Source: Chloroflexi bacterium HGW-Chloroflexi-2
GTDB lineage: Bacteria; Chloroflexota; Anaerolineae; Anaerolineales; Anaerolineaceae
DNA length: 51,935 nucleotides
Direction: 5' to 3'
NCBI GenBank assembly: GCA_002840735.1
Contig: PHBY01000022.1
Location: forward strand, 1-51,935
Program-made: the position numbers and the translations under genes
Notes under the pieces: model-generated
Seen by the model: only the letters and a program-made list of their open reading frames with translations
Databases searched by the model: none
What the model was told of the DNA's origin: nothing
Shown: in pieces, positions 2,926 to 7,236 of the stretch
Numbering within the stretch: position 1 is the stretch's first letter
Layout: each line of letters begins with the position of its first letter

Positions 2926-2954
2926 TTGACGAAAGAACAAATGTTCTATACAAT
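2926..2954 (+). promoter_or_regulatory. Promoter with embedded LexA-like operator
   Basis: TTGACG (2926-2931) and TACAAT (2949-2954) are spaced by 17 bp. Between them lies the 14-bp palindrome AGAACAAATGTTCT (2934-2947), which contains GAAC-N4-GTTC, the Gram-positive-type LexA (SOS) box core. The predicted transcription start, seven bases past the -10, is the A of the ATG at 2961, so the mRNA would be leaderless. The operator fills the promoter spacer and would block polymerase when occupied. Confidence 0.7.
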
Positions 2955-2960
2955 AGAAAT

Positions 2961-3368
2961 ATGAGCATATGGCATACTTTTCAAAAGTTCTTTCGTCCGG
3001 AGACAACCCCTGTATCACAGCGTTCCTTTGCCCTGGAGGGAGATTTGTTGGTTTCCCTGGAGCAACTGGCGCGCTACCGTGGTTCCACGCCGCGCAAGGT
3101 GGCGGCCGATCTCCTTGAGCGCGAGCTGCAGCTGGTGGAGGTGGAACGCGAGACCTGGGAGAAATGGCAATCTCTGACCGAACGCGAGCAGCAGGTGGCA
3201 GCCCTGATCTGTTTGCAATACCGCACCCATCAAATTGCCACGCGTTTACAAATTGCGCCGGAGACAGTCCGCAGCCATGTGCACAATATTCTGCATAAAA
3301 TGGATCTGCCCAATCGCATCGCTCTGCGGCAGCTGCTGACAGGTTGGGATTTTAGCAGCTGGGCATGA
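2961..3368 (+). CDS. LuxR-type helix-turn-helix regulator, first gene of the polymerase cassette
   Basis: The 135-residue protein ends in a GerE/LuxR DNA-binding domain (about residues 70-128): LTEREQQVAALI, IATRLQIAPETVRSHVHNIL and the following KMDLPNRIALRQLL. The N-terminal half (about 20-60) is a short helical segment, LLVSLEQLARYRGSTPRKVA, which may be a dimerisation element. No receiver domain is present. The gene lies under a promoter carrying a LexA-like box and is probably translated from a leaderless message. Base composition turns markedly GC-rich here compared with its flanks. It is a plausible regulator of the downstream genes. The three genes after it have their own promoter, so operon membership is inferred. 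Confidence 0.8.
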   Translation: MSIWHTFQKFFRPETTPVSQRSFALEGDLLVSLEQLARYRGSTPRKVAADLLERELQLVEVERETWEKWQSLTEREQQVAALICLQYRTHQIATRLQIAPETVRSHVHNILHKMDLPNRIALRQLLTGWDFSSWA

Positions 3369-3380
3369 TGCCTTGCACGA

Positions 3381-3417
3381 ATAAACATCTTTAAACGATT
3401 CTTAAACATATTTAAAC
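3381..3417 (+). promoter_or_regulatory. Four helically phased WTAAAC repeats
   Basis: ATAAAC at 3381 and TTAAAC at 3391, 3402 and 3412 are spaced by 10, 11 and 10 bp, so all four fall on the same face of the helix. They lie upstream of the promoter for the RecA-like/polymerase genes. Phased direct hexamers are typical of sites for cooperatively binding activators such as PhoB/PhoP-type or LuxR-type regulators. The regulator is not known. The LuxR-type protein encoded just upstream is one candidate. Confidence 0.5.
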
Positions 3418-3438
3418 GAAAAATCATCTTAAGTGGGA

Positions 3439-3467
3439 TAGAAAATATTTTCTACAATTGATATGAT
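3439..3467 (+). promoter_or_regulatory. Palindromic operator and -10 of the RecA-like/polymerase operon
   Basis: TAGAAAATATTTTCTA (3439-3454) is a perfect 16-bp palindrome. Its core AGAA-N6-TTCT matches the outline of the operator at 2934-2947. TATGAT (3462-3467) lies exactly seven bases before the ATG at 3474, again suggesting a leaderless transcript. No good -35 hexamer is visible, which fits a weak or activated promoter. Confidence 0.5.
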
Positions 3468-3473
3468 GGGGGT

Positions 3474-4055
3474 ATGAAAAGCTTATTCCCCTCGCAACTG
3501 TCCAACCAGATCATCCTGGTGATGGGCGAACATGCCGCATCCAACTGGATGTGGGAGCTTTCCGCCTGGCTGGCGCTGCAGGGCAACCTGCGCGTGCTGG
3601 ATGCTGGCAATCGTTTCAACGCCTACCCGGTGGCGCAGGCCATCCGCCGTCAACACCAGAATCCACGTGTGGTGCTGGAGCGTATCCGGCTTTCGCGCGC
3701 CTTCACCTGTTATCAGGTGGATGTGCTGCTGGAGGAATGGCAGCCGTTGCCCTATCCGACCCTGGTGTTTGACCTGTTATCGACCTTTTATGATGAGAAC
3801 GTCAACCTGCCGGAAAGCCTGCGCCTGCTGCGCCAGGTGATCTGGCGTTTACAGCAGCTCAGCAAAATAGCGCCGGTGGTGGTCAGCACGCGTTTGCCGG
3901 CCAGCATCTGCGCCGAGCGTATGGTGCTGTACGATATGTTGAAAGCGCAGGTGGGCGAGCTGCGTCTGGAGACGGAACTGACTCCAGAGGATCGTGCTCC
4001 ATTACCCGCGCAATTGCCGCTCTTAGCGGCCAGTGATAACACTACGACAAGATAG
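3474..4055 (+). CDS. RecA/Rad51-like protein lacking the Walker A motif
   Basis: The 193-residue protein has the outline of a RecA-fold core. An opening strand, IILVMGE, stands where the P-loop should be (residues 13-24, ending HAASN with no GKT/GKS). LSRAFTCYQ resembles the Rad51/RadA motif ARAYNTDHQ. A Walker B-like strand, TLVFDLL, has its aspartate at residue 100, and a later strand reads APVVVSTR. Loss of the P-loop suggests a non-ATPase paralogue. ImuA and SulA, RecA-like accessory proteins of SOS mutagenesis, are functional parallels, not proven homologues. It sits directly upstream of, and in line with, a small protein and a family-B polymerase, so it may load or modulate that polymerase. 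It is GC-rich and probably leaderless. Confidence 0.65.
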   Translation: MKSLFPSQLSNQIILVMGEHAASNWMWELSAWLALQGNLRVLDAGNRFNAYPVAQAIRRQHQNPRVVLERIRLSRAFTCYQVDVLLEEWQPLPYPTLVFDLLSTFYDENVNLPESLRLLRQVIWRLQQLSKIAPVVVSTRLPASICAERMVLYDMLKAQVGELRLETELTPEDRAPLPAQLPLLAASDNTTTR

Positions 4056-4071
4056 AAAGGAAGGTGATTTT

Positions 4072-4344
4072 TTGGGACGTACCGTACCATCCATAACTCA
4101 GGTTTTTATGCAGGAGGAGCAATCCCTCTCGCGTTTTCGGCGCGCTTTGCGACGTAGCGATCAACTGGCACTGGATGAATTGCTCAGTATGGCACGTCAG
4201 CATATTGCCGCAGCCGCTTATGCCACGCATGTGCTGCCGATGGAGACTTTTCTGGTGGCCATGCTGCTGGAGGAGCACAAGGAAGTGCGCCGTTTGCGTG
4301 ATGAGGTCGAGCTTTTGCAGCGGAGGTTGAATGCAGGAAGTTAA
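4072..4344 (+). CDS. Small helical protein of the polymerase cassette
   Basis: I do not recognise this family. I place the start at the TTG at 4072, which has GAAAGGAAGGTG at good spacing. The in-frame ATG at 4033 lies inside the preceding gene without a ribosome site. The 90-residue product is almost entirely helical and amphipathic, with basic residues early (LSRFRRALRRSDQ) and a likely coiled coil at the C-terminus (EEHKEVRRLRDEVELLQRR). It begins 16 bp after the RecA-like gene and its end overlaps the polymerase start by 14 bp, so the three are translationally linked. A bridging or accessory subunit for the polymerase is a reasonable guess only. Confidence 0.7.
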   Translation: MGRTVPSITQVFMQEEQSLSRFRRALRRSDQLALDELLSMARQHIAAAAYATHVLPMETFLVAMLLEEHKEVRRLRDEVELLQRRLNAGS

Positions 4345-6661
4345 CGGCTGGCTGCTGGACGTGTTTGAGAATACCCAGACAACCGGGGCGGTGCTCTGGT
4401 TCCTGACGGAGAAGGGGGAGCGCCTGCGTCTGTATCAACCCCTCCCGATCAGGTTCTATGTGGCTGGCCCGGCGGTGCGTTTGCGCGAGGTCTGGCGCTT
4501 CTTGAAGGATCATCCCGCTGCACCGCGCCTGAGTCGTGATCAGAAGCGCGATCTTTTCCAGCCGGAGCCGGTGGATTTGCTGGCGGTGGAAGTGGCTTCC
4601 TTCAGTGATCAGCAGCGCCTCTTTCGCCAACTGCTGGATCAATTCCCCACGCTGACCTATTACGATGCCGATCTGAGCATCGCGGTGCGGCATGCCGCCA
4701 AATACAAAACCTTCCCGTTATGCCACTGCCGGGTGAAATTTTACGAGTCCTATCTGATTCAGGAACTGGAGGTGTTAGACACACGCTGGGATCTGGATCC
4801 GCAACTGCCGAAATTGCGCGTACTGCACCTGGAACCGGATTGCGATCCGGCGCATGCGGCCCCGCTGGCGTTGTGCGCACAGATGAACGGGCAATCCTAC
4901 CGCTTTTCGCTGCAGCCGGTGCGCCCGTTGCTAATCAACCTGCAGGCACTCCTCAAGCGCCTGGATCCCGACCTGATCCTGACACGCTGGGGTGATACCT
5001 GGCTGCTGCCTTATTTGTTCGACCTGATGGAGAAGCAGAAATTTGAACTGGCTTTGAACCGCGAGACAAGACGCAAATACATGCAGCGCCCGGAGCGCTC
5101 TTACTTTTCCTATGGGCAGATCATCTACAGCGGACAGCAGATTCACCTGTTCGGGCGCTGGCATATCGACCAGAAAAACGCCACCTTCTGGGGCGACCTG
5201 GGGCTGGATGGTATCTTTGAGATGGCGCGTGTGACCGCCCAGCCGGTGCAGGTGGCAGCGCGTACCTCGCCGGGCACCGGAATCTCAACCATGCAGGTGC
5301 TGACGGCGCTGGAGCATGATATCCTGGTGCCCTGGCATAAACAGCAGGGAGAACGCCCCAAAACAGCCCTGGAGCTGATTGAATCTGACCTGGGCGGGTT
5401 GGTGTACCAACCCATCGTGGGGTTGCACCGCGATGTGGGCGCCATCGATTTCATCTCGATGTACCCGGCCATCATGGTGCGCAGCAATATCTCGCCCGAG
5501 ACGGCTAAACCACGCCTGCTGGAGGTTTCCGCTGAGCCGCAAGGCTTGATCCCACTTACCTTAGAGCCACTGCTGGAAAAACGGGTGGCCTTGAAGCACC
5601 GTATGAGCTCGCTGCCACGCTGGGATCCGCGCCGCAAGCTGGATGCCGAGCGCTCCGGCGCGCACAAGTGGCTGCTGGTGACCTGCTTTGGCTACCTGGG
5701 TTACAAGAATGCCCGTTTTGGACGCATCGAATCGCATGAGGCCGTCACCGCCGGTGGGCGTGAAGCGCTCATGCGCGCCAAAGAAGCTTCCGAGGATTTT
5801 GGTTTTAATGTACTGCATATGTACGTGGATGGTCTGTGGGTGAAGCAGGAAGGCTACACCCAGCCAGCGGATTTCTCTCCTCTGCTGGATGAGATCGTGA
5901 CCCGCACGGGGTTGGCGATCTCATTGGATGGAGTTTATCGCTGGGTGGCTTTCCTGCCCTCGCGTGTGAACGAGCGCGTGCCGGTACCCAACCGCTATTT
6001 TGGTGTCTTTCAGGATGGCTCGCTCAAGGTGCGCGGTCTGGAAGCACGCCGGCGGGATTCGGCTCCCTGGGTGGCGCGCATGCAGATGCAATTGCTCGAG
6101 CACCTGGCGCAGGCGGAGAGTGTGGATGAACTGCCGGAGTACATTCCGGGTGCGCTGGCCATCCTGCGTCATCATCTGGCGGACCTGCGCAAGGGACGGG
6201 TGCCGTTGACCGATTTGTTGGTGGCTTTACGCCTGACGCGAGAACCGCAGGAGTACACGGTTAAGACCGCCGGGGCGCGTGCCGGGCAGCAATTACTGAC
6301 GATCGGCAAGTCGATTCGGCCCGGGCAGCGTGTGCGTCTGCTGTATATGCACGGTGGGGAGGTGCAGGCCTGGGACATGCCGCAGACCGTCGATCCGCGC
6401 CGGGTGGACCGGGCACGCTATTATGAGCTGGCAGTACGAGCGGCCTCTTCGGTCTTCTGGCCGATGGGCATCCCCGAAGCGGATCTGCGCGCCTGGTTGC
6501 AGGGTGGTATTCAGCTGTCCTTTGATTTTGCCCTGCCGGCCGGGAAGAGGCATATTTTGCTGCCGCCCAGGGAGGAAGAGAAAGAATGGGAGAGATTGTT
6601 TGTGCCAGGGGAGAGGAAATCAATACAGGTGGAATTGGGTGAAAAGGTTGTGGTTGGGTAG
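4331..6661 (+). CDS. Family-B DNA polymerase with degenerate exonuclease motifs (PolB2-like)
   Basis: The 776-residue protein has polymerase motif A as DFISMYPAIMVRSNISPET with the catalytic aspartate at residue 373. Motif B is K446-WLLVTCFGYLG, where the usual KxxxNSxYG has become KxxxVTxFG. Motif C is YVDG with the second catalytic aspartate kept at residue 500 and the first replaced by Tyr. The Exo I motif FDIE reads LHLE (residues 165-168, aspartate lost). The Exo II region DPDLILTRWGDTWLLPYL lacks the usual Asn and Asp. I infer an active or partly active polymerase without proofreading, as known for archaeal PolB2 (Dpo2), a damage-induced polymerase. The gene is co-directional and overlapping with the small helical gene. 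Codon use is much more GC-rich than in the surrounding genes, suggesting transfer. Confidence 0.88.
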   Translation: MQEVNGWLLDVFENTQTTGAVLWFLTEKGERLRLYQPLPIRFYVAGPAVRLREVWRFLKDHPAAPRLSRDQKRDLFQPEPVDLLAVEVASFSDQQRLFRQLLDQFPTLTYYDADLSIAVRHAAKYKTFPLCHCRVKFYESYLIQELEVLDTRWDLDPQLPKLRVLHLEPDCDPAHAAPLALCAQMNGQSYRFSLQPVRPLLINLQALLKRLDPDLILTRWGDTWLLPYLFDLMEKQKFELALNRETRRKYMQRPERSYFSYGQIIYSGQQIHLFGRWHIDQKNATFWGDLGLDGIFEMARVTAQPVQVAARTSPGTGISTMQVLTALEHDILVPWHKQQGERPKTALELIESDLGGLVYQPIVGLHRDVGAIDFISMYPAIMVRSNISPETAKPRLLEVSAEPQGLIPLTLEPLLEKRVALKHRMSSLPRWDPRRKLDAERSGAHKWLLVTCFGYLGYKNARFGRIESHEAVTAGGREALMRAKEASEDFGFNVLHMYVDGLWVKQEGYTQPADFSPLLDEIVTRTGLAISLDGVYRWVAFLPSRVNERVPVPNRYFGVFQDGSLKVRGLEARRRDSAPWVARMQMQLLEHLAQAESVDELPEYIPGALAILRHHLADLRKGRVPLTDLLVALRLTREPQEYTVKTAGARAGQQLLTIGKSIRPGQRVRLLYMHGGEVQAWDMPQTVDPRRVDRARYYELAVRAASSVFWPMGIPEADLRAWLQGGIQLSFDFALPAGKRHILLPPREEEKEWERLFVPGERKSIQVELGEKVVVG

Positions 6662-6687: not shown

Positions 6688-7236
6688 TCATTCCCAATCC
6701 AAACCCTGTATTCTGCCTTCATTCCCGCCAACCCAATCATTATCGTAAATACCCTGATGGACGAATTTGTGGAAACTTGACCACTGCCAATCTGACGCTT
6801 TTTCTACATATCCATGCTTGATGGGATTGTAATGAATGTAATCCAAATGTCTTTCGAAATCCCCATCATTCTTTATGGCATGCTCCCAAAATCGTCTTTG
6901 CCAGATGGCTGCTTCCTGTCGCTTTTGACGTGATTTATTCCTTTGTTGTCCAGGTCCGATTTCAATCAGATATTGTTTTGTAAATAGACGTTTGATTTCT
7001 TTCCAACGGACAGAATAATTAGCATCATCCTCTGGAAGTTGCCAGATACAATGTAAGTGATCGGGTAATAGGCAAATAGCAATTGTTTTGAAAGGGAATC
7101 TTCGTTGCGTATCTTCCCATGCATTATGAAGGATGCTGCGACATTTAGGATTTTTGAACAGAGGGATGCGGTTATAAGTAACCACGGTGAAGAAAAAAGT
7201 ACCCCCATTGATGAGAAGACGGCGATATTCAGGCAT
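6688..7236 (-). CDS. REP-associated tyrosine transposase (RAYT), Y1_Tnp family
   Basis: The 182-residue protein shows the IS200/IS605-like Y1 fold. The metal-binding HUH motif is LPDHLHCIWQLP, and the likely nucleophile tyrosine is in HLDYIHYNPIKHG. The N-terminus MPEYRRLLINGGTFFFTVVTYNR and the tail SDWQWSSFHKFV are typical of RAYTs. RAYTs are domesticated single-copy transposases that process REP hairpins rather than full insertion sequences. GGTGC-type palindromes flank the gene on both sides (6662-6680, 7267-7285). No insertion-sequence ends or target duplications are visible, so I do not call a complete IS. Confidence 0.93.
   Translation of the reverse strand: MPEYRRLLINGGTFFFTVVTYNRIPLFKNPKCRSILHNAWEDTQRRFPFKTIAICLLPDHLHCIWQLPEDDANYSVRWKEIKRLFTKQYLIEIGPGQQRNKSRQKRQEAAIWQRRFWEHAIKNDGDFERHLDYIHYNPIKHGYVEKASDWQWSSFHKFVHQGIYDNDWVGGNEGRIQGLDWE

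Follow-up and report, generated by a model that had tools for sequence, protein, structure and literature searches.

A highly probable LexA-controlled PolB2 mutasome operon with a LuxR/NarL-type first gene in a Chloroflexota bacterium

The PolB2 mutasome is the described system closest to the locus reported here. Timinskas et al. (2025) modelled iRadA, PPB2 and PolB2 as a heteropentameric mutasome, with AlphaFold models only, gave iRadA-PPB2-PolB2 as the sole bacterial gene order, and noted that lexA is enriched in bacterial PolB2 neighbourhoods and that beta-clamp motifs are commoner in iRadA than in PolB2 (PMC11791011). An earlier notice of the operon is cited there, and the mutasome view is repeated in a 2026 survey (PMC12926913). 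In this study, we analysed a window (the whole stretch of DNA, 51,935 nucleotides) from Chloroflexi bacterium HGW-Chloroflexi-2, in which four same-direction genes at 2961-6661 lie downstream of a LexA-type SOS box (2935-2946) within a sigma-70-type promoter. The genes run rightward and encode a GerE/LuxR helix-turn-helix protein, a 193-amino-acid protein, a small helical protein and a family-B polymerase. The observation of this four-gene cassette, made in an earlier reading of the sequence (the original prediction), is confirmed, with four co-directional open reading frames (ORFs) and Pfam matches to GerE and DNA_pol_B bearing out the gene identities. We consider it highly probable that the cassette is a bacterial operon for a PolB2 mutasome and is controlled by LexA, since homology, motifs, gene order, operator conservation and co-occurrence all support this reading. 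Subunit assembly (from the models above) and extender activity (from archaeal Dpo2) are taken from the literature, and we infer induction, assembly and mutagenesis in this bacterium as well as the targets of the regulator.

Because the three-gene core had already been modelled as a heteropentameric mutasome in 2025 (PMC11791011), the original claim that no system of this composition had been described fails, and the partners it called unrelated are homologues of the archaeal PolB2 partners. Its mutasome logic holds up as a hypothesis, in which damage induction is conjectural. The three-gene core is the described system; the Chloroflexota SOS operator and the PolB2-tied regulator are the new part. 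The main text of PMC11791011, supplements aside, has zero occurrences of "LuxR" and of "Chloroflex", and neither a LuxR-type first gene nor a shared Chloroflexota operator sequence was found in that text. Likewise, the words Chloroflexi, PolB2 and LexA have zero occurrences in the text of Kazlauskas et al. 2020 as covered here (PMC7544198), and among the matches listed from the open-access literature no paper dealt with the Chloroflexota operon or with a LuxR gene under SOS control beside PolB2.

Conservation of the iRadA-PPB2-PolB2 core

The comparison covered 61 genomes, 41 of them PolB2-positive and 20 negative, and 39 of the positives were analysed, without G001 (a remnant) and G012 (a contig end); additional partial matches in G020 and G043 were likewise set aside. 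iRadA and PPB2 are present upstream of PolB2 and co-directional with it in all 39 Chloroflexota loci (the window and 38 others); in one of these loci (L088) the two occupy a single ORF. A contig scan of the best 80 of 534 relatives, in which loci with at least 1300 bp upstream were counted, recovered both partners in 35/35 Chloroflexota loci (4 of which duplicate the first set), 15/17 other bacterial loci and 13/14 archaeal loci. The partners missed by profile were both proteins in L165 and L198 and iRadA only in L173. The archaeal partners are upstream and co-directional in 10 of the 14 loci; in three others (L191, L199 and L201) iRadA matches the opposite strand, beyond the start of the polymerase. 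Named carriers of the operon in the scan include Leptolinea tardivitalis YMTK-2 and Pelolinea submarina MO-CFX1. Conserved co-occurrence, on which the original prediction had staked its four-gene set, is therefore found for the three core genes; the LuxR gene stands beside them in only 20 of the 39 loci.

The 193-residue product is a homologue of the RadA/Rad51 ATPase domain by family profile and modelled fold, as had been proposed. A profile of the 44-member iRadA family, archaeal members included, matches Rad51/RadA at 9.6e-13, and Pfam Rad51 is matched by 17 of the 44 members with E values of up to 1, the best being 8e-8. The AlphaFold2 model of the window protein (mean predicted local distance difference test score, pLDDT, 90.7) starts at a core strand, residues 13-17, and the 50 listed Foldseek matches are all of RadA, Rad51 or Dmc1 type, with template modelling scores of about 0.5-0.6. 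The helical N-terminal domain of RadA is missing. A Walker A motif is also absent from the window protein, both on reading the sequence and by pattern scan, and GxxxxGK[ST] occurs in 1/39 iRadA ORFs (L070), where it lies upstream of the conserved domain. At its C-terminus the window protein carries a beta-clamp-like motif, QLPLL. Of the 39 iRadA tails, 27 hold such a motif, whereas 1000 shuffles gave a mean of 2.0 and a maximum of 7; the expression used was written after the sequences had been seen.

The small, presumably helical protein is PPB2, judged from its N-terminal MGRT arm and its place beside PolB2. Its likely start is TTG 4072, not the listed GTG 4033, as a Shine-Dalgarno-like AAGGAAGGTGA is followed there by MGRT. 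MGRT, or LGRT with a TTG start, opens 36 of the 39 PPB2 proteins, and the remaining three have MGKS, MGHT and MGKT. The PPB2 and polB2 genes overlap by 14 bases.

The polymerase matches Pfam DNA_pol_B at 1.4e-22 and NCBIfam NF004416 at 5.4e-111, with 372 bits against a family cut-off of 516. It retains Asp373 of motif A, Lys446 of motif B and, in motif C, the second Asp (D500); motif C reads YVD instead of DTD, so that the first DxD Asp is a Tyr. Across 110 aligned PolB2 rows (those of at least 560 residues among 119 sequences, a few of them duplicates) from Chloroflexota, other bacteria and archaea, this first Asp is lost in every one. At the Exo II site, GDTWLLPYL in the window, the alignment places a Leu at the position that we take to be that of the catalytic Asp in canonical PolB; the exonuclease active site, judged at Exo II, appears to be lost. 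The loss of both Asp residues would also suit a catalytically dead enzyme, for which Rogozin et al. 2008 argued (PMC2527604), the operon then encoding a structural or regulatory complex such as a modulator of RadA/RecA filaments or of the replication fork. We regard this as very improbable, as all 110 rows retain the Asp of motif A, the Lys of motif B and the second Asp of DxD, and as archaeal Dpo2, which belongs to this group, does have polymerase activity (PMC8764526). An exonuclease-free polymerase working within a mutasome is the reading we prefer. A D(K/R) motif is conserved in the PolB2 loop that binds PPB2; a candidate counterpart here is Asp280, present in 108/110 rows and followed by R in 47 of them and by Q in the window, its correspondence to 253-DK of S. 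islandicus being tentative. In one locus (L091, G051:C103), two PolB2 match pieces about 300 bp apart lie in one 859-codon open frame, with an in-frame insertion after motif A.

In a tree of the 110 rows, made by a short search with a midpoint root and without a PolB1/PolB3 outgroup, the window polymerase falls among same-genus sequences within Chloroflexota, and a branch with support 100 separates the 15 archaeal rows from the rest. For the labelled Chloroflexota, L165 counted among them, support is 70; it is 98 without L165. Eight rows of Thermodesulfobacteriota/Myxococcota type lie on the archaeal side of the midpoint root.

The SOS box and its distribution

The evidence for LexA control comes from this genome and from its relatives. 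Within the genome, a related box lies in the recA promoter (GAACATTTGTAC) and another in the lexA promoter (GGACACATGTTC), both placed as in the operon promoter and each one mismatch from GAACN4GTTC; by this sequence match the operon shares its operator with recA and lexA and would join the LexA regulon. Among the 39 Chloroflexota loci, scanned from -200 to +40 around the assigned first start, GAACN4GTTC is perfect at the first gene in 23 and within one mismatch in 33, and the runner-up among the 256 palindromes of this form is perfect in 3. A second set of 31 Chloroflexota loci, free of duplicates of the first and searched between -150 and +140 around the ORF opening, has the box perfect in 14 and within one mismatch in 24, with 2 perfect sites for the runner-up. 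The operator of the original prediction is in this way borne out by related recA and lexA boxes and by conservation across loci.

A search of the whole genome is less telling. The 12-base box alone gives 35 sites against 27 for a reversed control, and enrichment is unclear. With the longer promoter pattern TTGACN4GAACN4GTTCTAT, the operon promoter is the sole site in the genome without a mismatch and recA is one of two with one mismatch, a ranking that is partly circular as the pattern was partly derived from the operon site and its relatives; the comparison with 255 other palindromes of the same form is free of this circularity. At up to three mismatches the pattern gives 39 sites against 36 in the control, and only sites with zero or one mismatch were therefore used. 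One one-mismatch match lies ahead of an unidentified gene (G000:C38:17588-17611, locus L094). The E. coli-type box CTGTN8ACAG gave no signal in the genome (27 sites against 31 in the control). In the other bacteria, the region ahead of the iRadA ORF opening holds a box with at most one mismatch in 0/15 loci, and extended ORFs may hide some promoters there (L165, of untitled phylum, is counted here); this would fit a LexA box specific to the phylum.

The box moves with the head of the operon. It precedes luxR in 18 of the 20 loci headed by that gene and otherwise precedes iRadA in 15/19, and in the second set the corresponding counts are 13/13 and 11/18. A box ahead of luxR resembles autoregulation, and no LexA footprint for this group was found in the open-access literature searched, so that the box might be the operator of another regulator, for example the LuxR-type protein itself, instead of a LexA site. 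The 15 loci that keep it without an adjacent luxR speak against this, as do the one-mismatch copies in this genome's own recA and lexA promoters and a perfect box at the start of an imuB-like gene in 3/4 loci of PolB2-negative relatives. We hold such an alternative to be most unlikely and retain a LexA-type operator. From the spacing between this promoter and ATG 2961, the operon transcript would be almost leaderless, as in many relatives. Coordinates of all features are collected in Table 1.

Table 1. Features of the operon in the window.
Feature	Position	Strand	Basis or remark
Sigma-70-type promoter of the operon, TTGACG-17 bp-TACAAT	2926..2954	+	Similar layout in many relatives
LexA-type SOS box GAACAAATGTTC inside the promoter spacer	2935..2946	+	Related boxes in recA/lexA promoters
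Small NarL/LuxR-type DNA-binding regulator, 135 aa	2961..3368	+	Pfam GerE 5.5e-13
Palindrome TAGAAAATATTTTCTA before iRadA, overlapping a second promoter-like site	3439..3454	+	By-eye comparison in the genus
iRadA, 193 aa, related to the RadA/Rad51 ATPase domain and lacking Walker A	3474..4055	+	Family profile, AlphaFold2, Foldseek
PPB2, predicted small helical partner, 90 aa, TTG start, MGRT	4072..4344	+	Alignment
PolB2 (bacterial G2 group) DNA polymerase, 776 aa	4331..6661	+	Pfam, motifs, tree

The cassette has a G+C content of 57% against 45% in its flanks. This excess was rejected as a sign of recent transfer, as it has the same sign in 38/39 loci. Both flanks match the window in G006 and G007. 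An IS200-like transposase-type gene (Y1_Tnp, 2.3e-5) lies at 6688-7236, convergent with polB2.

The LuxR/NarL-type regulator gene

The first gene encodes a GerE-domain protein without a receiver domain that ends in WDFSSW. Its AlphaFold2 model has a pLDDT of 88.0, and the best Foldseek matches are StyR, VpsT, FixJ and NarL (E 7e-4 and weaker). A by-eye reading of its N-terminus as ribbon-helix-helix found no support from Pfam or the listed Foldseek matches. Family members end in WDFSxW or a close variant, and the variants in L067, L071, L072 and L089 were counted as present. The LuxR/NarL-type gene belongs to a distinct family. The profile for it (A4, 24 rows) was built from copies beside the operon, and the threshold of E below 1e-25 was chosen post hoc at the gap between 3e-27 and 5e-18. 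The A3 rows absent from A4 are L133, L143, L152, L153 and L185; the matches in L152 and L153 look like generic helix-turn-helix proteins without WDFS.

At this threshold the family is found in 27 of the 61 genomes, all 27 of them PolB2-positive (G012 by a contig-end fragment), and in 0/20 PolB2-negative genomes (Fisher 2e-7, kinship uncorrected). It might be argued that the gene has no functional tie to the mutasome beyond a common SOS promoter: it is not beside the operon in 19 of the 39 loci, and around seven unlinked copies the stretch fetched gave no match to iRadA, PPB2 or PolB2 and, judged by eye, no recurring neighbour. Against this stand the restriction of strong family members to PolB2-positive genomes, the position of the gene directly before iRadA in the other 20 loci, mostly behind the box, and a box within one mismatch at 7/7 unlinked copies. 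We consider a mere sharing of the promoter possible, if doubtful; the gene looks more like a regulator within the SOS regulon that occurs along with PolB2. The unlinked status is certain only in long assemblies such as G047 (one contig, two copies), several genomes being fragmented, and one further copy, in G012, is cut by the contig end.

Between luxR and iRadA, TAGAAAATATTTTCTA is a perfect 16-bp palindrome, and the second promoter-like site there has a -10 element, TATGAT, that ends at 3467. By eye, a TAG[AG]AA...TTCTA palindrome is found in this gap in all seven same-genus loci, perfect in the window and L055 and imperfect in the other five, and TATGAT is found in six of the seven. The palindrome is a candidate second operator. 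In L077, the same gap holds a perfect LexA-type box.

Several points weigh against a LexA-controlled mutasome operon as the account of this locus. The window iRadA, taken alone, has no match in Pfam, NCBIfam or PDB sequences; it was assigned through a profile of its family, archaeal members included, and through a model that draws on that family too. Of the PolB tails (last 60 residues, without a control), 12/39 likewise fit the clamp-like expression, the tail of the window polymerase not among them. The box is beyond one mismatch in 6/39 and 7/31 loci, and the first-gene start codons were assigned by heuristic. No regulator lies beside iRadA in 19/39 loci, from which it follows that the regulator is not essential to the complex, and, as its profile came from operon-adjacent copies, diverged relatives in PolB2-negative genomes were possibly missed. 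Finally, the same-genus genome G001 retains only a C-terminal PolB2 remnant (contig C29, L211: 5901-6308), beside the same IS200-like gene, and has neither a member of the regulator family nor a Y-family match. The operon is thus dispensable, and the cassette has been lost naturally.

Other translesion polymerases, proposed mechanism and known systems

The host genome is 99.87% complete in 40 contigs, and no Y-family polymerase match was found in it. Such matches occur in 42 of the 61 genomes, the same-genus G001 and G007 being also without one. PolB2 and Y-family polymerases are not associated in this set (30 genomes with both, 12 with Y-family only, 11 with PolB2 only and 8 with neither; Fisher p 0.38). 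The host has a second DnaE of 1037-1043 residues (G000:C17, locus L220: 3550-6660), and no SOS box was found in the 11-kb stretch around it. Four PolB2-negative relatives have ImuB-like genes with an adjacent DnaE2-like gene, names given from a weak Y-family match, size and sequence start without a family search. In L214, L215 and L217 the imuB-like gene has a perfect GAACN4GTTC at its start; L216, which begins at a contig edge, shows none. Mutual exclusion of PolB2 and ImuB-DnaE2 was considered and is unsupported: across 297 genomes of the class, PolB2 is found in 1/8 of those with a strong ImuB match (E below 1e-80) against 44/297 overall.

The mechanism we propose begins with DNA damage, upon which RecA-stimulated cleavage of LexA would free the promoter at 2926-2954. 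The freed operon would supply the small NarL-type regulator together with the iRadA, PPB2 and PolB2 subunits. The polymerase complex would form from PolB2, from PPB2 trimers that attach through the MGRT arm and from iRadA, which would bind PolB2 in the manner of adjoining Rad51 subunits; the iRadA tail QLPLL may tether the complex to the beta clamp. There, the exonuclease-free PolB2 would extend primers past lesions, and the regulator probably tunes either the operon itself or a second set of damage genes. Archaeal Dpo2 is an extender with poor insertion opposite lesions (PMC8764526), and with no detectable Y-family polymerase in this host, either the bacterial PolB2 differs or another enzyme inserts. 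A bolder version, which we think unlikely, makes the NarL-type protein a dedicated second-tier SOS regulator, with LexA acting first and an internal palindromic promoter before iRadA second, and has PolB2 and its partners both insert and extend as the main inducible translesion polymerase in the absence of a Y-family enzyme.

The LexA-controlled operon turns a predicted bacterial mutasome into a concrete claim about an SOS regulon, with an operator that is conserved across many genomes of a phylum and moves with the operon head, and it adds a PolB2-tied regulator family that we did not find in print. The host also raises the question of whether PolB2, an extender in archaea, works without a Y-family partner, and genomes with PolB2 and no detectable Y-family polymerase provide a clean setting in which to ask whether PolB2 is only an extender.

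The imuA-imuB-dnaE2 cassette is composed of the three genes that its name lists. The operon has in common with it the logic of an SOS-controlled, multi-gene mutasome with a RecA-like partner, but the polymerase family and the partners are others, and neither ImuB (Y-family) nor DnaE2 is encoded in the operon. E. coli Pol V (UmuD'2C-RecA) likewise joins a polymerase to a RecA-fold partner, a comparison made in PMC11791011, but Pol V is a Y-family polymerase with other accessory subunits. With Sulfolobus Dpo2, which is damage-inducible in its host, the window polymerase shares membership of the PolB2 group of family B, an altered DxD and the lack of an exonuclease (PMC8764526); in contrast to this genome, in which none is detectable, the Sulfolobus host has a Y-family polymerase. 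The PolB2 mutasome (PMC11791011) is the nearest of all, with homologous genes in the same order, the MGRT arm, the DxD loss, a clamp-like motif in iRadA and a link to LexA; to these, the locus described here adds a LuxR-type gene at the head of the operon and an SOS box within the promoter.

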